NCBI RefSeq assembly: GCF_004217315.1
Contig: NZ_SGWR01000002.1
Location: 116,414 to 180,413 of the forward strand
Direction of reading: 5' to 3'
Origin: Corticibacter populi
GTDB lineage: Bacteria; Pseudomonadota; Gammaproteobacteria; Burkholderiales; Burkholderiaceae_C
DNA: 64,000 nucleotides
Position 1 is the first letter of the stretch. Each line of letters starts with the position of its first letter. A model generated the notes under the pieces. It made no database searches and was not told the origin of the DNA. It saw only the letters and a list, made by a program, of their open reading frames with translations. The position numbers and the translations under genes were made by a program. Positions 1 through 22,793 of this stretch are shown in pieces.

Positions 1-1256
1 TACAGATCAGGAAGGAACGCGACGAGCGGGCCAAGGCCGCCAACGAACGCAAGGCCCAGATCGAACAGCTGACCCAGGCCAAGACCACTGCCGAGAAGCT
101 CGCGCAGGAGCGCGATCAGCAAATTGAACAGATCAGGAAGGAACGCGACGAGCGGGCCAAGGCCGCCAACGAACGCAAGGCCCAGATCGAACAGCTGACC
201 CAGGCCAAGACCACTGCCGAGAAGCTTGTGCAAGAAAAGGTCGAACTTCTGGCGCAGTTCACCAAAACACGAGATGAACAGGCCCGACTGGCCACAGAGC
301 GTCAGAAACAGATTGAGCAACTGACCAAAGCCAAAACCTCTGCAGAAAAACAGCTGTCAGCACTGACTGGTGCCGCCAGCCCCTGCACTGCAGCGGCAAA
401 CACCTTGCCCCAAAGTGCAGTGGTGGCTGATGCGAACGCACCATATTCGGCGTCACCCACAACCACAAATGGTGGAGCCACGACCAAACGGATTTTCAGT
501 AGTGACGCCAATATCGATGATTTCCTGAATGACCTCGTGCCATTCTTTTTTGAGCAATCCATCACCTATGTCGATGTTGGCGCTTTTGTCGGTGAAATTT
601 TCATCAAATTCCATCAGAACAAAAACTTCCGACTCAGAGAAGCCCACTTATTCGAACCCAATCCCGAAAGCTACAAAAAACTAAAAGACAACATCAACGG
701 GATCAATATATCAAAGATTCATGCTTACAACCATGCAATAGGCAAGCAAGAAAGCGATCTAAGTTTCAGTGCCGCCCGATCCATGACCAAAATCATCAGG
801 ACAGCAGATACCACAGAGCAGCAAACAGGCGTATTCCATGCAAAATGCCACAAACTGGACACTCTCGTCAACCTATTCACGGATCAACACATCCATCTAT
901 TAAAGATTGACGTAGAGGGAGCAGAGCTGGACGTCCTGCAAGGTGCACAAAAGATCTTCAGGGAGCAAAAAGTCGACGTTATTTACATCGAAGTTGGTTT
1001 CAGCAAAGAAGGCACCCAGCAAGCCTATTTTGCCGACATCGATGGCTTTTTCCAAAAGTTCGGATATCGCGTCTTCAAGATATATGAACAAACCAACGAG
1101 TGGATTCAGGATTTGCCAGTGCTGCGGCGCTGCAACTTCGCTTACATGAGCCCCCGCTTTGCTGCTGCCAACCCAGCAAAGGCAAAACAAGAAATAGTGA
1201 GATTGAAGAGAGAAATCGAGTTATTAAAAAACACTCAAAAAGGGAATGAACAATGA
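1..1256 (+). CDS. FkbM family methyltransferase with N-terminal tandem-repeat coiled coil (5' end outside window)
   Basis: The frame is open through the left edge, so the true start is missing. The GTG at 228 is internal to the repeat and is not the start. The first ~125 residues are charged, helical, heptad-like sequence in 42-residue repeats. The last ~260 residues match the FkbM methyltransferase fold (Methyltransf_21): a SAM-binding strand YVDVGAFVGE, the acidic FEPNP motif, and LKIDVEGAELDVL. Such enzymes O-methylate sugars or other small substrates, often in polysaccharide loci. A short charged helix closes the protein. The stop overlaps the next gene by four bases (ATGA at 1253-1256), so it is coupled to the three-domain glycosyltransferase. 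The acceptor is unknown. The methyltransferase call is firm; a chain-terminating or length-measuring role is inference. Confidence 0.88.
   Translation, partial: QIRKERDERAKAANERKAQIEQLTQAKTTAEKLAQERDQQIEQIRKERDERAKAANERKAQIEQLTQAKTTAEKLVQEKVELLAQFTKTRDEQARLATERQKQIEQLTKAKTSAEKQLSALTGAASPCTAAANTLPQSAVVADANAPYSASPTTTNGGATTKRIFSSDANIDDFLNDLVPFFFEQSITYVDVGAFVGEIFIKFHQNKNFRLREAHLFEPNPESYKKLKDNINGINISKIHAYNHAIGKQESDLSFSAARSMTKIIRTADTTEQQTGVFHAKCHKLDTLVNLFTDQHIHLLKIDVEGAELDVLQGAQKIFREQKVDVIYIEVGFSKEGTQQAYFADIDGFFQKFGYRVFKIYEQTNEWIQDLPVLRRCNFAYMSPRFAAANPAKAKQEIVRLKREIELLKNTQKGNEQ
3..380 (+). repeat. 126-bp in-frame tandem repeat (2 near-perfect copies plus 1 diverged)
   Basis: The unit is 126 bp (42 codons). 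Copy 1 starts at 3 and copy 2 at 129; positions 3-100 and 129-226 are identical base for base. A third, diverged copy runs from about 255 to 380 and keeps the pattern with RDE, QIEQLT and KAKTSAEK. 42 residues is exactly six heptads, so each unit keeps coiled-coil register. The array continues past the left edge, so the copy number is unknown. Confidence 0.93.
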
Positions 1257-4200
1257 GTTTGAAGCTTGGCAACGAATTAAGTGCAAAAGGCCTTTATACC
1301 GAGGCCATCGCTGCGTATCAGAAGGTCGACCCAAAAAGCCCGCTCCGCCGTCATGCCGAATTCAACATACGAAATATCGAAAAAATACTGAGTAGAGAAA
1401 GCAGCTCAAGTGCTATCGAGCAATCTCAACGAGCAGAGCTCACTGCGCTGGAACTGCCACTCCTGTCCATTGTGATGCCGGTCTTCAATGTCGCCCCGTA
1501 TCTGGACAACAGTATCAATTCGGCGCTGTCACAGCGCTATCAGAATTTCGAGCTGATCATCGTCAATGACGCGTCCACCGACAATGGCAAGCGCATCATC
1601 GAGATGTACGCCAATGAAGACGAGCGGATTCGCTTCATCAATCTCGATCACAACACTCTGGGTGGTGCAGGTATTCCAAGCAACATTGGTATCCGTGCAG
1701 CCAAAGGCAAGTATATCGCCTTCATCGATAGCGACGATTGGGTCAAACCAGATGCGTTCTACAATCTGATGCAGCAAGCGATCCGACACGATGCTGATCT
1801 TGCGATTGGTAATTTCTGTACCTTCACCGAGGACGACCGGATTGTGTCCACCGCGTATGACAACGCGACTTGGAAGAACCTGCCGAAGAACAAGATAATT
1901 TCGCTCGGTACGCACCCTGACTTGTTGGGTCTCTCACCCGTTCCGTGGCGGAAGCTCTATAAGACCAAATTTCTGCGCGATCACGACATCGTTTATCCAG
2001 AGGGAGATTATTTCTACGAAGACAATCCGCTGCACTGGCATGTACTGTCCAAAGCCGGGCGCGTCGTAGTGGTGGATGAGATGGTCAGCTATCACCGCAT
2101 GGCTCGCGAAGGGCAAACCATGGGCTCTGCCGAGTATAAGCTAAGTGCCTTGTGCAGCCATTTGAATACGATTCTCGGTTATATCAAGCAGGCTCCTATC
2201 GATGTCAAACCGATTCTATTCAAGGAGCTGCGCGGCTACCTATCAAAACGAATCAACTGGGTGCTCAAGCGGCAAACTCAACCCTCCGCGGAGCGGATGA
2301 TAAAGAAAAGACTGTCACAGATTGGCGATAAATCCTTGATGGAGCGTGGTGTCGGTTCCTTCGGCAAGGATGCCATGCAAAAAATGGCCGAATACAAGAA
2401 GGCCTACCCCGATGTTGACTTAACCATCGTCATTCCTGTCTTTAATGCCGAGGATTTGTTGACCGAAACCGTCGAGTCCATTATGTCCATCAAGGGCATC
2501 ACGTTCAATGTCTTGGCAGTGGACGACGGTTCCAGCGACGGTTCGCTGGCTCTGCTGCAGCAGTACGAGAAAAAGTACCCCAATTTTCACGTTTTCACCC
2601 AGGGAAACAAGGGGGCGGGCAGAGCGCGCAATGCGGTGATTCCACTAATTACCGGGGAATACACCTATTTCCTCGATGCTGATGACGTTATCGATGGCAA
2701 GGCTCTTGAAGACGCACTGGCGCTGGCGGTTCGCGAAGATCATGATCTTGTGTTCGTGAAGTACAAAATAGAATTGCACGAAGACAAGAAAACAAAGGGC
2801 ATGTTCAACTCGGATGCAGACTTGTGGAAGCAATTGGCCAACGCCAAGGACAACGAGACCCGCAGGAACATCGTCGCGCAATTGATCAACTATCCGTGGA
2901 ACAGGGTCATCAAAACCTCTCTATTACACGACCAAAACATTTTCTTCGGTGCGACTGTCGTGCACAACGATATTACGTACCACTGGCACAGCATTCTTGC
3001 AGCCAAGAACATCGGCTACACCCAAGGAACAGTGTGCACGCATCGAAAGTTCAACGCTCGCGTACAAATCACCAACATCAATGACGGTCGGCGGATGGCG
3101 GTATTGGATGCGCTGCGGTATACCCATGCAATCGTAGTACGCTCAACCAGAAGCTCGGAATTCCTGCAATCATGGTCGCAATTCGCCACGCATCTACTGA
3201 CATGGGCGGAAGAACGCATTCCCAATGAACTGAGGGATAATTACCGAATCAAACGCCAGCAGTTCCTGGAGGAAATCGGGAATACGATAAAAGGGTGCCC
3301 GGTGCAGCATTCCATTCCATCCGCAGCGATTGCATTCGAGAAGGAAGGCCAATTTGGAAAGGCGGCTGCTATTTATGACTTGCTTGCTACCGATAGCGAG
3401 CACCCCGAATTGCACTGGAAAGAAAGGGATCGGATTATCGCCATCATGACCAATGGCGACATGAAAAAGGGGGAGGCCGTGCAAGCGGGCCTTCACCTGA
3501 AAGATGCAGAAAAATCGCAAAAATGGCTCAGGGTTGCCCATTGGCTTGGCGATTTAAAAAACCCTGATCTTATAGATCAAATCCCACTCCCCAATGACGA
3601 ATGGGACTCCAGCGAGCTTTTGATTGCAAAAGCGAATGCTTGTGGACACGTGGGAAACAGAAGCGCCTGGCTGCAATACGTGAACAGGTATTTAGATATT
3701 CATCAGATGAGCCCGATCAGTCTTGATGACAACCAAGGCAGCAGAAATCTGTTCCTTGAAATCAAGTGCGTGGCCAACCAAAAAAATCACCGAGCGAACA
3801 AGGAACCATGCGTCACAGTGTGTATGTCATGTTTCAATTCCGAAAAAACCGTCGAAAAGGCAGTACGCTCGTTAATGCAACAGAGTCACAAGAATCTGGA
3901 AATCATCCTTTTCGACGACAACAGTGTCGATCATACTCTTTCCATCATCGAAAGACTGGAAAAGGAGGATGCCAGAATTCGGGTGATTCGCAGGAATACC
4001 AATAACGGCACCTATGTCAATCGGAATAGCGCATTGCAGCAAGCAAAAGGCGAGTTTTTCACCGTATTGGATTCAGATGATGTTGCCTTGCCCGAGCGCA
4101 TCGCCCTGCAAGTTCAACATCTGATGGAAAATCCGGAACATGTGGCAGTATTGACCAGATGGATACGGATGGATGAGAGCGGAAGATTCCTTTTCAGGGA

Positions 4201-4591
4201 TGGCTGGGGTGGCACCTATACCCACGAAGCCGTTGCAACCTTGATGATCCGGGTTGACAAGGTACGGAATGTGGCTGGTTATTGGGATTCCGTGCGCTTC
4301 TCCGCCGATACCGAGTTCTTCAAGCGTTTGGGCAAATGTTTCGGTGAAGACAAGATCCACTTGCTGATGGCACCCACCTGCTTTGCCTTGTCGCATGAAG
4401 ACAGTTTGACACGAGATCCGGTGACCGGAATCGATGTCAACGGGAAATATGGCTGGTCACCAACCCGCATCGAATATGCACAGTCGTGGCGAAAATGGCA
4501 TGCGAAGGCAGAAAATTTGCATATGCCCTTCCCATTGAAGCAAAGACCCTTCAAGGCACCAGAGGCAATGTTGCCGGAGTATGTGAGGTAG
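1253..4591 (+). CDS. Three-domain family 2 glycosyltransferase
   Basis: 1112 residues. A short TPR-like N-terminus (residues 1-45) is followed by three GT-A (GT2) domains starting near residues 70, 388 and 852. Each has its own nucleotide-binding and metal motifs: SIVMPVFN with IDSDDW, TIVIPVFN with LDADD, and VTVCMSCFN with LDSDD. TPR-like helices lie between domains 2 and 3 (AFEKEGQFGKAAAIYDLL). All three active sites look intact, so one polypeptide may add three sugars or alternate two linkages. It overlaps the methyltransferase gene by four bases, and glf follows 86 bp later. Most single-domain GT2 enzymes are about 250-350 residues. Domain 3 is clearly related to the separate enzyme at 9267-10760. 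Sugar specificity cannot be read from sequence. Confidence 0.92.
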   Translation: MSLKLGNELSAKGLYTEAIAAYQKVDPKSPLRRHAEFNIRNIEKILSRESSSSAIEQSQRAELTALELPLLSIVMPVFNVAPYLDNSINSALSQRYQNFELIIVNDASTDNGKRIIEMYANEDERIRFINLDHNTLGGAGIPSNIGIRAAKGKYIAFIDSDDWVKPDAFYNLMQQAIRHDADLAIGNFCTFTEDDRIVSTAYDNATWKNLPKNKIISLGTHPDLLGLSPVPWRKLYKTKFLRDHDIVYPEGDYFYEDNPLHWHVLSKAGRVVVVDEMVSYHRMAREGQTMGSAEYKLSALCSHLNTILGYIKQAPIDVKPILFKELRGYLSKRINWVLKRQTQPSAERMIKKRLSQIGDKSLMERGVGSFGKDAMQKMAEYKKAYPDVDLTIVIPVFNAEDLLTETVESIMSIKGITFNVLAVDDGSSDGSLALLQQYEKKYPNFHVFTQGNKGAGRARNAVIPLITGEYTYFLDADDVIDGKALEDALALAVREDHDLVFVKYKIELHEDKKTKGMFNSDADLWKQLANAKDNETRRNIVAQLINYPWNRVIKTSLLHDQNIFFGATVVHNDITYHWHSILAAKNIGYTQGTVCTHRKFNARVQITNINDGRRMAVLDALRYTHAIVVRSTRSSEFLQSWSQFATHLLTWAEERIPNELRDNYRIKRQQFLEEIGNTIKGCPVQHSIPSAAIAFEKEGQFGKAAAIYDLLATDSEHPELHWKERDRIIAIMTNGDMKKGEAVQAGLHLKDAEKSQKWLRVAHWLGDLKNPDLIDQIPLPNDEWDSSELLIAKANACGHVGNRSAWLQYVNRYLDIHQMSPISLDDNQGSRNLFLEIKCVANQKNHRANKEPCVTVCMSCFNSEKTVEKAVRSLMQQSHKNLEIILFDDNSVDHTLSIIERLEKEDARIRVIRRNTNNGTYVNRNSALQQAKGEFFTVLDSDDVALPERIALQVQHLMENPEHVAVLTRWIRMDESGRFLFRDGWGGTYTHEAVATLMIRVDKVRNVAGYWDSVRFSADTEFFKRLGKCFGEDKIHLLMAPTCFALSHEDSLTRDPVTGIDVNGKYGWSPTRIEYAQSWRKWHAKAENLHMPFPLKQRPFKAPEAMLPEYVR

Positions 4592-4677: not shown

Positions 4678-5778
4678 ATGTCATATGATTACCTGATCGT
4701 TGGTGCCGGCGTTTTCGGCTCCACCTTCGCCCGCTTGGCCACCGATGCCGGCAAACGCTGCCTCGTCATCGACAAACGTCCGCACGTGGCAGGCAACTGC
4801 TACACAGAGAACCAGCACGGCATCAACGTGCACGTCTTCGGGCCTCACATCTTCCATTGCAATGACGAGAACATCTGGAACTTCGTCAATCGCTTTGCCA
4901 AGTTCAACAACTTCCGCAACAGTCCCATCGCCTTCCATGGCGGCAAGGCCTATTCGCTACCCTTCAGCATGTACACATTCAACCAGATGTGGGGTGTGCT
5001 GACACCGGAAGAAGCGCAGGCCAAGATCGAGTCCCAACGCCTCAAGCTCGATCGTGAACCGGCCAACTTGGAGGAACAGGCGCTGATCCTCGTCGGACCG
5101 GACATCTATGAAACACTGATCCGTGATTACACCCGCAAGCAGTGGCAAAAAGACCCCAAGGACCTGCCAGCCTCCATCATCAAGCGCCTGCCCGTGCGTC
5201 TGACCTGGGACAACAACTACTTCAACGACAAGTACCAGGGCATTCCCATCGGCGGATACACCGCACTGTTCCAGAACATGCTGGACGGCATTGACGTGGA
5301 ACTGAGTGTGGATTACCTGGCGGACATCGACCACTGGAACGCCAAGGCCAAACAGGTGGTTTTTACCGGCAAGATCGATGAGTACTACGGCTTCCGGTTC
5401 GGTGAATTGGAGTATCGCTCACTGCGTTTCGATACCGAGGTCATCGAGACCAGCAACTATCAAGGCAATGCGGTCATCAACTACACCGAGGCAAATGTGC
5501 CGTGGACCCGCATCATCGAGCACAAGCATTTCGAGAATGACCTAAAGACACCCGTGTCCGTGGTGACGAAGGAAATCCCGGACACTTGGTCGCGCAACAA
5601 GACACCTTACTATCCCATTGGCGATGCCCGGAACATGGCCATCTTCAAGCAGTACGAAGCGCTTGCCGAAGCCGAGTCCAACCTCATCTTCGGCGGACGC
5701 CTTGCAGAATACCAGTATTACGACATGCATCAAGTAATTGGATCGGCCATAGCAAAAATCAGAAAGATACAGCAATGA
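4678..5778 (+). CDS. glf: UDP-galactopyranose mutase
   Basis: 366 residues, the usual Glf length. The FAD-binding N-terminus reads YLIVGAGVFGSTFARLATDAGK, followed by the Glf signature HVAGNCY and GPHIFHCNDENIW. Further on are RPTRKQW-like (DYTRKQWQKDP) and RLPVRLTWDNNYFNDKYQGIP, all typical of the family, and the C-terminal GGRLAEYQYYDMHQVI. It interconverts UDP-Galp and UDP-Galf in the cytoplasm, so the polysaccharide made here probably contains galactofuranose. The ATG at 4678 has AAGGATG about 8 bases upstream. It lies between the multi-GT and the hydrolase gene, same strand. Confidence 0.97.
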   Translation: MSYDYLIVGAGVFGSTFARLATDAGKRCLVIDKRPHVAGNCYTENQHGINVHVFGPHIFHCNDENIWNFVNRFAKFNNFRNSPIAFHGGKAYSLPFSMYTFNQMWGVLTPEEAQAKIESQRLKLDREPANLEEQALILVGPDIYETLIRDYTRKQWQKDPKDLPASIIKRLPVRLTWDNNYFNDKYQGIPIGGYTALFQNMLDGIDVELSVDYLADIDHWNAKAKQVVFTGKIDEYYGFRFGELEYRSLRFDTEVIETSNYQGNAVINYTEANVPWTRIIEHKHFENDLKTPVSVVTKEIPDTWSRNKTPYYPIGDARNMAIFKQYEALAEAESNLIFGGRLAEYQYYDMHQVIGSAIAKIRKIQQ

Positions 5779-6901: not shown

Positions 6902-7957
6902 ATGCAACGAAATCACATCAAATCGATCTTCCATATATTTTTTTTAGCAGCGCCAATACTGCATACGCCTGCCTTTTCAGGAGATTTCATCAATCCCTGG
7001 GAGCAAAGTCATGACACAAAACTGCGCTCAGAGCTTATCTGCCCTCCCGTGCAGTACGTAAGTCCCAACTTATCAATTAACGGAGGCGTTTACCTAAAAG
7101 ATGGCATTACCAGAGACAAAGATAAAGATAAAGAAATATCCAACCTCACGAGAAGCATAAGAGAATCAGCCACCCAAGCCGCAAATCTTGCAGATGAGTA
7201 TCAGTCCACCGGAGATGCCAGGGCTGCATACTGCGCCCAGAAAATATTACTTACGTTGTCTCAGAACAAATCACTTTCCGGGCCAATAAACGGTTATCAG
7301 GCATACTTCGTCAAGACCTGGATGCTCTCATCTCTTTCGGCATCCTGGCTGAAGGTCATGTCTCTTAATGACACAAACAGGATCGATGCAAACCTCATCA
7401 ATTCCTGGCTCACTGAATTAGCAGGCGACATCATAATGCGATTCAATCGATCCAGAGAATCAAACATCAAAAAGGGAGATACCAGCATTGCAAACATGTA
7501 TTATTGGGCTGCACTGGCGGCGATCAACACTGCCATCGCAACGGGGAACAATGAATATTTTGACTGGGCAATTGGAGTCTTCAGATCAGGGCTTGACCAA
7601 GCCGACGAAGACGGATTCCTTCCTCCTGAATTAAAGCGGAAGGCGCTGGCACAACACTATCATGTTTTTGCGCTAATACCATTGATTCTCATTGCCGACC
7701 GTGCACAAATCAACGGCATTGATCTTTACCAATACAACAACCATGCATTGAATAGAATAGTCAATGCGACCATAGACTCCTATTTCGACCCCACATTAAT
7801 TGAAAAAAAATCCGGATACAAGCAGAGAAGCGTGCCGCGACCTTATTTTGGGTGGCTATATAATTACAGCAAAAAATTTCCAAACGAGAAATATGATGCC
7901 ATCTTAAGTGAATATCCAGAAAGAAGATTTCTATATATCGGTGGCTCTCCAACATAA
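6902..7957 (+). CDS. Secreted alginate-lyase-like protein (AlgL/PL5-related)
   Basis: 351 residues with an N-terminal signal peptide (basic KS, hydrophobic IFHIFFLAAPIL, likely cut near AFS-GD), so it is periplasmic or secreted. The body follows the alginate lyase (alpha/alpha)6 pattern. Residues from about 200 read NMYYWAALAAINTAIATGN, then DWAIGVFRSGLDQADEDGFLP, ELKRKALAQHYHVFAL and GIDLYQYNN. These line up with the AlgL segments NHSYWAAW, DGFLPNELKR, YHNYAL and GVDLRQ as I remember them. The tyrosine and arginine/lysine positions are kept, but the His of AlgL NHSYW is replaced (NMYYW). It may cleave a uronic-acid-containing polymer made by this locus, since ugd is next door, or clear misplaced polymer from the periplasm as AlgL does. 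The gene is AT-rich and has no clear Shine-Dalgarno. Confidence 0.8.
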   Translation: MQRNHIKSIFHIFFLAAPILHTPAFSGDFINPWEQSHDTKLRSELICPPVQYVSPNLSINGGVYLKDGITRDKDKDKEISNLTRSIRESATQAANLADEYQSTGDARAAYCAQKILLTLSQNKSLSGPINGYQAYFVKTWMLSSLSASWLKVMSLNDTNRIDANLINSWLTELAGDIIMRFNRSRESNIKKGDTSIANMYYWAALAAINTAIATGNNEYFDWAIGVFRSGLDQADEDGFLPPELKRKALAQHYHVFALIPLILIADRAQINGIDLYQYNNHALNRIVNATIDSYFDPTLIEKKSGYKQRSVPRPYFGWLYNYSKKFPNEKYDAILSEYPERRFLYIGGSPT

Positions 7958-19482: not shown

Positions 19483-20602
<1,120 letters not shown>

Positions 20603-20726
20603 TCTCCTGCTGCCATCACGCCAAGCGGCGGGTCCGTCCTCTGGATGGCCCGCCGACTGCCTTTCAAAGCATTCCTTGAAGCGGCAGCCTGGGCCTCTCC
20701 TTTACCCACGCACACCATCGTCTCCC

Positions 20727-22793
20727 ATGCCCACCATTGGCGTTCTATCCAGAGGCATTGCCGCCATCGAGCGCCTGGATGTTCTGCTGGGCCAACCCTG
20801 GGTATACCAGCGCAGCTGGCAGGCGCCGCACTGCGAGGTGGTGGCGGCCTGGGGCTTGCGGCCCAGTGCCGTGCGGGCGCAGGCCTATGCGCAAAAGCAT
20901 GGCTTGCCACTCTGGCGATTGGAAGATGGCTTCGTGCGCTCAGTCGGCCTCGGCAGCCAGGATGCGCCCCTCTCCATCGTCATCGACACGCAAGGCATTT
21001 ATTACGATGCGGCGCATCCCAGTGCGCTGGAAGGCCTGATCGCCACACCGCTCACACCCGCGCAAACACAGCGCGCCGATGCGCTGATGCAGGCCTGGCG
21101 CCATGAGCGCATCTCCAAGTACAACCATCTGCGTGATCCGGCTCCCGAGTCCCTGCCCCAGCGCTTCGTGCTGGTGGTCGATCAGACCTGGGGCGATGCC
21201 TCGATCCGGGACGGACTGGCCGATGCGCAAAGCTTCGAGCGTATGCTGGTTGCCGCCGTGGCGGAACATCCCGACAACACCGTGCTGCTCAAGATCCACC
21301 CCGACGTGTTCGCCGGCAAGAAGCGTGGCCACTTTGATGTGGCAAAGCTGAAGGCCATGCCACAGGTGCAGGTGTTGGCCGAGGACATGCACCCTGCGCT
21401 GCTGCTCGAACGCGCCGAGGCCGTGTACGTGGTGACCTCGCAGATGGGCTTCGAGGCACTGCTGTGGGGCAAACCCGTGCGCACGTTCGGCATGCCCTTC
21501 TATGCCGGCTGGGGCCTGACAGGCGATGAACTCGTCGCTCCCATGCGCCGACAAGCACTGGCAAGCACGCCCATTTCCCTCCAACAACTGGTGCATGCCG
21601 CGCTGGTGGACTACCCGCGCTACCTGGACCCGGAAACCGGCCAGCGCTGCGAACCCGAGCGCCTGATCGAATGGCTGGGCCTGCAGCGGCGCATGCGGGC
21701 ACGCCTGCCGAGGCGCGTGTATGCAGTGGGATTCTCATGGCTCAAGCGCGCCAAAGTCCGGCGCTTTCTCGATGGCAGCGAAGTGACGTTTACGCGCCAT
21801 ATCCGACAGGTTCCCGAGCATGCCACCATAGCCCTGTGGGGCTGCCGCAAGACCTTGCCATCAGGAAATGCCCAGACCGGCAGCCTGCACAACCCGAGTT
21901 TGGTTCGCCTGGAAGATGGTTTCCTGCGCTCCGTCGGGCTGGGAGCGGACCTGGTGCAGCCACTCTCATGGGTAGTCGATACGCGGGGCATCTACTACGA
22001 CGCCACCTGCCCTTCGGATCTGGAGTGGCTGCTGGCGAACACCGATTTCACATCCGAGCTGCGTGAACGCGCCGCCGCACTGGGCGCCCGCATCGTCGCC
22101 AGCGGAATCACCAAGTACAACACCGGCATCGGCACCTGGCAGCGGCCTGCCGGCACGCAAGGGCGGCGCGTGCTGCTGGTGCCCGGACAGGTGGAGTCGG
22201 ATGCCGCGCTGACCTGGGGCGCTCCTGGCATCCGCACCAACATGGCCTTGCTGCAAGCGGTGCGGCAGGCCAACCCGGATGCCCATGTGATCTACAAGCC
22301 CCACCCGGATGTCGTCGCACGCCTGCGTGCCCAAGGTCAGGGCGAAGCCTTGGCCCATGCGCATTGCGATGAAGTGGTGGTGGATGTATCGATGCAACAG
22401 CTGCTGGACGCAGTGGACGAGGTGCATGTGCTGACCTCGCTGGCCGGCTTCGAGGCCTTGCTGCGCGGCCGCAAGGTGGTGACCTATGGCTGCCCCTTCT
22501 ATGCCGGCTGGGGCCTGACGAATGATCGCCAGCCGCTACCGCAGCCGGCAGACACCCCCGATGCCGCCAGCCGTCGCGGACGTGCACTGACGCTCGACGA
22601 ACTGGTGGCATGCGTGCTGATCCTCTACCCCACCTACGTCAGCGCAAGCTCCGGCCGCTACACCACACCAGAACGCACGCTCGACGAGTTGCTGGCCTGG
22701 CGGCAGGCCGGCGCAGACACCGATTCTCCCTGGCTGCGCACCAAACGCGCCCTGTTGCGCCTGGCGCAATGGGGTGGCTGGATCAAGCGCTGA
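20727..22793 (+). CDS. kpsC: Capsular polysaccharide beta-Kdo transferase KpsC
   Basis: 688 residues from the ATG at 20727; the frame is open far upstream, but similarity starts at PTIGVLSRG. It consists of two homologous halves, as KpsC does. LEDGFVRSVGLG and LEDGFLRSVGLG, GIYYDA twice, LLKIHPDV and IYKPHPDV, and PFYAGWGLT twice mark the pair. KpsC adds alternating beta-linked Kdo residues onto lysophosphatidylglycerol primed by KpsS, giving the lipid anchor of capsules exported by ABC transporters. KpsS and the exporter genes are not in this window. kdsA, 124 bp upstream, supplies Kdo. Confidence 0.94.
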   Translation: MPTIGVLSRGIAAIERLDVLLGQPWVYQRSWQAPHCEVVAAWGLRPSAVRAQAYAQKHGLPLWRLEDGFVRSVGLGSQDAPLSIVIDTQGIYYDAAHPSALEGLIATPLTPAQTQRADALMQAWRHERISKYNHLRDPAPESLPQRFVLVVDQTWGDASIRDGLADAQSFERMLVAAVAEHPDNTVLLKIHPDVFAGKKRGHFDVAKLKAMPQVQVLAEDMHPALLLERAEAVYVVTSQMGFEALLWGKPVRTFGMPFYAGWGLTGDELVAPMRRQALASTPISLQQLVHAALVDYPRYLDPETGQRCEPERLIEWLGLQRRMRARLPRRVYAVGFSWLKRAKVRRFLDGSEVTFTRHIRQVPEHATIALWGCRKTLPSGNAQTGSLHNPSLVRLEDGFLRSVGLGADLVQPLSWVVDTRGIYYDATCPSDLEWLLANTDFTSELRERAAALGARIVASGITKYNTGIGTWQRPAGTQGRRVLLVPGQVESDAALTWGAPGIRTNMALLQAVRQANPDAHVIYKPHPDVVARLRAQGQGEALAHAHCDEVVVDVSMQQLLDAVDEVHVLTSLAGFEALLRGRKVVTYGCPFYAGWGLTNDRQPLPQPADTPDAASRRGRALTLDELVACVLILYPTYVSASSGRYTTPERTLDELLAWRQAGADTDSPWLRTKRALLRLAQWGGWIKR

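Follow-up and report, generated by a model that had tools for sequence, protein, structure and literature searches.

The gene at the left edge of this stretch raises the question of why a bacterium should join a methyltransferase to a near-identical, in-frame tandem repeat, and whether such a repeat could measure the polymer made beside it. The window, i.e. the whole stretch of DNA analysed, comprises 64,000 nt of Corticibacter populi (C2:116414-180413, where C2 is contig NZ_SGWR01000002.1), and the 3' part of the gene, here gene B, occupies 3..1256 on the + strand with 417 codons visible. The first-pass annotation had reported 98 identical bp between consecutive 126-bp units, each coding for 42 residues or six heptads, and a diverged third copy. 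We measured 99 identical bases between window positions 2-100 and 128-226 at a shift of 126. The in-phase units w1 (3..128, +) and w2 (129..254, +), of 42 residues each, share 109 of 126 bases and 35 of 42 residues, and the third, w3 (255..380, +), has indeed diverged, sharing 67 and 70 of 126 bases with w1 and w2, respectively, and 21 of 42 residues. Directly left of the window start, and within the array, is a run of 93 Ns (C2:116321-116413), to the left of which two further units start at C2:116143 and C2:116269, the second entering the N run. TRF did not report this array, probably because fewer than two unbroken near-identical copies stand on each side of the N run. An array in Halochromatium roseum (L074) likewise contains an N run, of about 100, and both cases fit the tendency of repeats to break assemblies. 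With 99 identical bases and at least four near-identical units, a chance repeat was ruled out. The full gene runs from C2:115342, about 1.07 kb left of the window, to window position 1256, and has approximately 775 codons including the N run; its array holds one diverged unit and no fewer than four near-identical ones.

The encoded protein proved to have two enzymatic heads. In agreement with the coiled coil suspected earlier, the hydrophobic periodicity of the window coil is 3.50, and in a model built from three sequences (mean pLDDT 60) residues 2-132 of the window protein form a single unbroken helix; the FkbM part of this model was too weak for a fold search. The FkbM methyltransferase domain, at 573..1073 (+) and containing an LLKIDVEG stretch, matches PF05050 with a Pfam E-value of 1.1e-24 and passes the family cut-offs of both PF05050 (87.9 bits against 22.7) and TIGR01444 (97.9 against 37.7). 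Hence, recent heptad-phased repeats are joined to an FkbM methyltransferase as first described, and that description is amended at the other end of the protein by a second domain with a methyltransferase fold. The N-terminal region of about 245 residues gave no Pfam match at E<=0.001, with weak methyltransferase matches above that value, and fell below the TIGR01444 cut-off of 37.7 bits, scoring 15.3 in the window gene and 26.5 in the Comamonas testosteroni gene (L068), and being unlisted for L071 and L072. The AlphaFold2 model of the C. testosteroni homologue of this domain (pLDDT 87, pTM 0.81) retrieved, among the best 50 Foldseek rows, mostly SAM-dependent methyltransferases, along with a small number of uncharacterised or otherwise SAM-binding proteins; VIA-align gave Z-scores of 11.9-13.9 against SAM methyltransferases, including 12.6 for the FkbM structure 2py6 (rmsd 3.1 over 170 aligned residues). 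A sequence search of the PDB gave E-values of only 0.2-0.75 for the N-domain and no match for the FkbM part. The N-domain alignment preserves the glycine motif as well as the strand 2 acidic residue, and most rows have D-C-L-P at the position at which the C-terminal FkbM domain has DVEG. Based on the modelled structure, the N-domain is predicted to be a class I SAM-methyltransferase fold, and the gene B protein is accordingly a dumbbell, with a methyltransferase fold and an FkbM methyltransferase separated by a coil. Pfam scans of window positions 3-1253, of the N-part and of the scanned C-termini found no kinase family, and B likewise has no demonstrated membrane-binding helix.

The proposed capsule setting of the gene is borne out by its neighbours. 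Upstream of B are genes for KpsS-like, KpsM, KpsT, KpsE and KpsD-like proteins followed by gene A, the KpsS-like protein having its match at C2:107117-108064; further into the window, at 20340..22793 (+), an ORF whose matches to Capsule_synth (PF05159) are split is KpsC-like. The ABC2_membrane, ABC_tran, Poly_export/SLBB and Capsule_synth matches of this locus are all over their Pfam cut-offs, and KpsE was assigned from a BexC/CtrB/KpsE match of E 1.4e-80 that is yet below the cut-off of its own model. In all six genomes tested, two or more Capsule_synth ORFs were found, including one with split matches; those of Piscinibacter sakaiensis (G062) are on a different contig from B, and its split one has just 496 residues. 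The locus belongs to the group 2-like capsule systems that export through an ABC transporter, with KpsMTED and KpsC/S-like components. The stop of B overlaps, in an ATGA at 1253..1256 (+), the start of a glycosyltransferase gene (1253..4591, +) with three GT2 stretches by Pfam, a candidate polymerase, which is consistent with the translational coupling to a three-domain glycosyltransferase noted at first. It is followed by a capsule sugar gene for UDP-galactopyranose mutase (glf; 4678..5778, +; Pfam). The locus also encodes, at 6902-7957, an alginate_lyase-family protein (PF05426) whose N-terminus looks hydrophobic by eye and which may trim the polymer in the periplasm. The first ~50 residues of the glycosyltransferase (1253-1402) resemble, by eye, a TPR-like hairpin, and similar N-terminal hairpins were seen by eye on the glycosyltransferases behind B in several other loci; weak TPR matches were obtained on the C. 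testosteroni counterpart only. By analogy with the Actinobacillus capsule polymerases, for which excerpts of PMC11666461 describe a TPR domain as essential for elongating the linker, the hairpin suggests docking, perhaps as a docking tag.

Gene A encodes a weakly sulfotransferase-like head, a coil of its own and a C-terminus that is basic and amphipathic-looking by eye. It is present in 17 of the 21 B loci and directly upstream of B in 15 of these 17, the exceptions being Pseudoxanthomonas kalamensis, in which it is downstream, and G869, with a gap of 1.4 kb. Two E. coli kps loci (fS10a and WP7-S18) have A alone; B is therefore not universal. Gene A may be linked to KfiB of K5, a lead drawn in part from one sentence in PMC13171606.

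We then examined the distribution of family B through its N-domain. Of 149 relatives, 4 carry it (this and the other counts among relatives include the genome of the query), and none of these is one of the nine other species of the genus, each represented by one genome. It is present in 25 of 399 genomes of the family (E<=1e-3), five of these at E<1e-38, in 5 of 369 genomes of the class (E<=1e-6) and in 7 of 53 Comamonas genomes. The FkbM part alone matched in 26 of the 149 relatives, the best match beyond its own genome having an E of 6.5e-13. In an alignment scan, nine named contigs carry the N-domain, two of which coincide with the contigs of G036 and G062; the scan relied on a single peptide pattern, so that this census is a lower bound, and a contig scan with one sequence found none. 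Among 72,556 plasmid records the N-domain occurs in a single one, from E. coli; it is also present in a kps locus next to yghD on an E. coli chromosome, and an E. coli search with the Leclercia B gene gave no match. The plasmid is pAL.H8, typed as mobilizable, and bears a kps capsule locus with both A and B (L110 8730-29999). The resulting set of 21 B genes, from Comamonas, Leclercia, Piscinibacter, Pseudoxanthomonas and others, consists of 19 fetched loci and two from E. coli. Of these, G396 is doubtful: it was missed by the 12-row profile (E<=1e-4) and kept on an E of 7e-11 together with its architecture. Weak matches such as G068, G341, G645 and others were left out, and G788 was dropped, having several methyltransferase-like domains by eye and no coil. 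KpsM and KpsT both occur in the fetched stretch for 15 of the 21 B genes, some of the misses being at short contig ends; at the two E. coli B loci KpsM, KpsT and A were scored by annotation and profile.

The C-termini of family B are diverse. The window gene, C. testosteroni JL40 and Leclercia have one FkbM type in common, and other FkbM domains end B in P. sakaiensis and an uncultured Comamonas. A sub-cut-off match to Methyltransf_24 was found at the C-terminus of G089, and by eye the C-termini of G342, P. kalamensis, G747, G870 and both E. coli B genes look similar to it. In G879 (L102 6531-7736, -) the C-terminal domain is BNR_4 (PF15892) and not a methyltransferase, and in seven members (C. 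kerstersii, a Rhodoferax MAG, L075, G708, G396, G881 and G869) the C-terminus is by eye coil only. We conclude that the N-domain is the family-wide constant part, and that the C-terminal enzyme is exchangeable or absent. In the uncultured Comamonas, B is separated from the gene that follows by an ORF that looks transposase-like by eye (L070 11038-12240); the genes downstream resemble those of C. testosteroni, and the coil and C-terminus of B differ.

Tandem arrays, all with a period that is a multiple of 3, were found by TRF at a score of at least 150 in 12 of the 19 B genes from fetched loci and in neither of the two from E. coli; with that of the window they amount to 13 of 21 (12 of 20 without the doubtful G396). 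The corresponding count for A is 2 of 20, the A set consisting of 16 genes plus four from E. coli, and the A of P. sakaiensis being identified by position only. Across B the arrays have eight unit lengths, of 42, 56, 77, 91, 14, 53, 81 and 11 aa, the first five being whole heptads. All eight are 0 or 4 modulo 7, a remainder of 4 being readable as one hendecad (53, 81 and 11 aa); the 11-residue unit is from G870 (L104 9048-11240), in which eight to nine copies of this hendecad repeat were seen. The naive chance is 4e-5 for eight of eight and 0.0023 for at least five whole-heptad units, with the modulo-7 rule having been taken from the same data. Misfits to this rule are a composite unit of 108 aa in C. 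kerstersii and the units of the two A-gene arrays, those of C. kerstersii (L069 6603-8930; 72 nt x 3.5) and G881 (L101; 261 nt x 2.0), which at 24 and 87 aa are not heptad multiples. To require whole heptads of every unit was rejected as too strict, since 53, 81 and 11 need the hendecad and 108, 24, 87 and 96 aa do not fit simply. In all 18 coils tested the hydrophobic periodicity, sought in the band 3.2-4.2, peaks at 3.44-3.65, with another period being higher overall in five of them and the short coil of G342 giving a weak signal. The pN/pS between units is 0.12-0.53 in 10 of 10 arrays, a set exclusive of the window, C. kerstersii and Halochromatium. The repeat units look like recent copies that are constrained as protein.

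The earlier idea of a variable coil is supported in that coil length differs widely between relatives: the main B coils, delimited by a simple rule, range from 58 residues in G342 to 655 in P. sakaiensis, which with a rise of 0.15 nm per residue corresponds to approximately 9 to 98 nm. The closest comparison is that of C. kerstersii with G881, the N-domains of which are 95.8% identical in DNA and 96% in protein, with coils of 357 and 531 residues, ~174 apart; the C. kerstersii sequence comes from a draft contig, where repeats can collapse, and the end of its coil is unlike that of G881. Strain variation of B in E. coli was rejected as support, as the array-free allele there is invariant, measuring 1739-1743 nt in 39 of 39 genomes.

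A second set of coil-bearing enzymes is found in the group 3 capsule loci of E. coli, in which a methyltransferase with a coil of ~470-550 residues takes the same place in the locus as B. According to excerpts of PMC10433991 (2023), region 2 of such loci begins with a gene for a SAM-dependent methyltransferase. These enzymes, annotated as 'class I SAM-dependent methyltransferase' (L115, L116, L119), are like B in place, in their long coil and, for one allele, in varying in length in frame; they differ in the N-terminal domain, and the B profile had no match (E<=1) in FAM_MT, ET76_MT or GW_MT. Across the three of these genes that were tested, TRF found a single array, of 1.9 copies. The 13 rows of one allele with at least 80% cover fall into forms of 2739 nt (nine), 2451 nt (three) and 2643 nt (one). 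The 2451 nt form has an exact deletion of 96 residues between 12-nt direct repeats at 99.84% identity (four mismatches in 2451 nt), and the 2643 nt form, at 95.1% identity, has one 32-residue unit fewer. It is this 96-residue coil deletion that separates LP-26-E1-261 from FAM21845 or 23CRST024 (L120 / L122, group 3 plasmids); LP-26-E1-261 and 23CRST024 were rejected as a clean strain pair, given that their downstream sugar genes differ and they are not isogenic for the polymer. A second allele speaks against fast length change: of the 37 rows, out of 50, in which cover reaches 80% or more, 36 are 2733 or 2730 nt long at 91.7-100% identity and the remaining one carries IS26. The other 13 align over 1-2261 only, with spans 129-130 nt shorter and differing ends, and one gene among them is 2574 nt long.

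Taken together, these observations lead us to propose that B is a cytoplasmic scaffold and most likely a WbdD-like ruler of an ABC-transporter capsule system, a reading to which we give a probability of roughly 40%. It would consist of a constant N-terminal methyltransferase-fold domain, a variable coil and an exchangeable enzyme, here of the FkbM family. One end of B, presumably within the cytoplasm, would dock at the exporter/polymerase complex, probably together with protein A and the TPR-tagged glycosyltransferases, and the enzyme at the other end may cap or otherwise modify the growing chain; the coil would thereby set a minimum chain length before capping. As Comamonas loci with differing downstream sugar genes share the N-domain, we take this domain to be the probable dock and the C-terminal enzyme the polymer-specific end. 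Unequal recombination between in-frame units could alter the length of the coil and leave the heptad register intact, each 42-residue unit adding about 6 nm. Against a ruler stand the invariance of the array-free E. coli B, the loci with A alone, the enzyme-less C-termini, the BNR_4 end of G879, the failure to find a kinase or a demonstrated membrane-binding helix in B, the 58-residue coil of G342 and the modulo-7 misfits, as well as the view taken of group 3 in excerpts of PMC13171606 (2026), namely that coil-length variation in these E. coli methyltransferases is not expected to be critical.

The exchange of C-terminal enzymes, among FkbM types, the sub-cut-off Methyltransf_24 and BNR_4, would also be natural if B were a reach-arm or scaffold tethering a modifying enzyme to the export complex, with the coil setting reach or crowding and not chain length. 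FkbM enzymes commonly modify sugars rather than capping chains, and coils occur in both A and B, which favors this possibility; nevertheless, we consider it rather unlikely, as such an arm alone does not predict eight unit lengths and very different coil lengths within one family. Less probable again is that the coil need only be a coil, with repeats arising by slippage or recombination and length being near neutral. The 58-655 residue range favors this view, and both the purifying selection on the units and their heptad phase would be expected of any coil; the part of PMC13171606 on group 3 is of the same tenor, expecting no importance of such variation. WbdD, in which length is critical, indicates moreover that a selected length can be held: it matched in 263 genomes, 210 of them over at least 80%, and among the 60 matches listed all 48 full-length rows measure precisely 2127 nt, even at identities as low as 89.9%. 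Neutrality accords less well with arrays being commoner in B than in A (13/21 versus 2/20), though the summed B coil is also the longer in 12 of 16 loci. The same figures bear on the proposal that protein A is the length determinant and B an accessory, which we regard as improbable: arrays are rare in A, and the summed coil of B mostly exceeds that of A. In its favor, the organization of A, with a sulfotransferase-like head (tyrosine sulfotransferases matched by profile at E 0.0087), a coil and a basic C-terminus, is the nearest to that of WbdD; A accompanies B in most loci (17/21) and occurs without it in the two E. coli loci, and at the present locus its summed coil is 420 against the visible 289 of B.

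Family B offers a concrete candidate for a length determinant, together with a natural series of coil lengths, and leads to the prediction that polymer size should track unit number. Were B indeed a ruler, the copy number of the repeat would act as an evolvable dial for capsule length; were it not, the very long coils of such enzymes would be only tethers. A wider generalization, that in many ABC-transporter capsules the length determinant is a coiled-coil ruler of constant dock and exchangeable cap, tuned by recombination of heptad-phased repeats, so that the gene would be a contingency locus acting through protein length, and hence on capsule thickness in ~6 nm steps, and not on/off, is one that we put forward as a doubtful extension.

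The closest known analogs are the terminators of O antigens exported by ABC transporters, in which, according to portions of PMC11231755 and PMC3482155, chain length is measured by a terminator that sits on the far end of a coil. B shares with WbdD of E. coli O9/O9a a methyltransferase fold, a coil as spacer and an ABC exporter and multi-domain polymerase as neighbors; by its periodicity and helix model it presents a coiled coil beside a methyltransferase in an ABC-transporter glycan locus, as in systems of the WbdD type. It is unlike WbdD in having no kinase, in bearing a second enzyme at the opposite end of the coil and in belonging to a Kps capsule rather than an O antigen; the kinase domain is itself described, in the same portions of PMC3482155, as present in WbdD of O9/O9a and absent from the O8 form. 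The earlier surmise that the two are unrelated is supported at the level of sequence: when WbdD of E. coli HS was compared by blastp with every ORF in the 19 loci, no relation to B was detectable, the best B match having an E of 1.0 (G396) and the next 2.6. This WbdD carries no tandem array. B may thus act like a WbdD-type ruler, yet it is not a WbdD. A modular terminator with a coil is likewise described for Klebsiella O4, O7 and O12 (ORF7-O4, ORF6-O7 and WbbB), the capping chemistry having been identified for O4 and O7, in sections of PMC11231755, and the coil-bearing methyltransferase of E. coli O101/O162, proposed as a ruler in sections of PMC13168486, is comparably modular and set in an ABC-transporter glycan locus; these are O-antigen systems, unlike B, and are likened to it by description. 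With regard to the FkbM family (PF05050/TIGR01444), the C-terminal domain of the window gene is a full member, and the N-domain is weakly alike in sequence and fold, differing by D-C-L-P in place of DVEG and by a score under the family cut-off. Among the open-licence papers listed in literature searches, no title or abstract opening describes family B, its heptad-phased arrays or its two-headed architecture. Coil rulers in the assembly of ABC-transporter glycans are already known, and coil-length variation in the group 3 methyltransferases of E. coli is on record; family B, its arrays and its two-headed build appear to be new.
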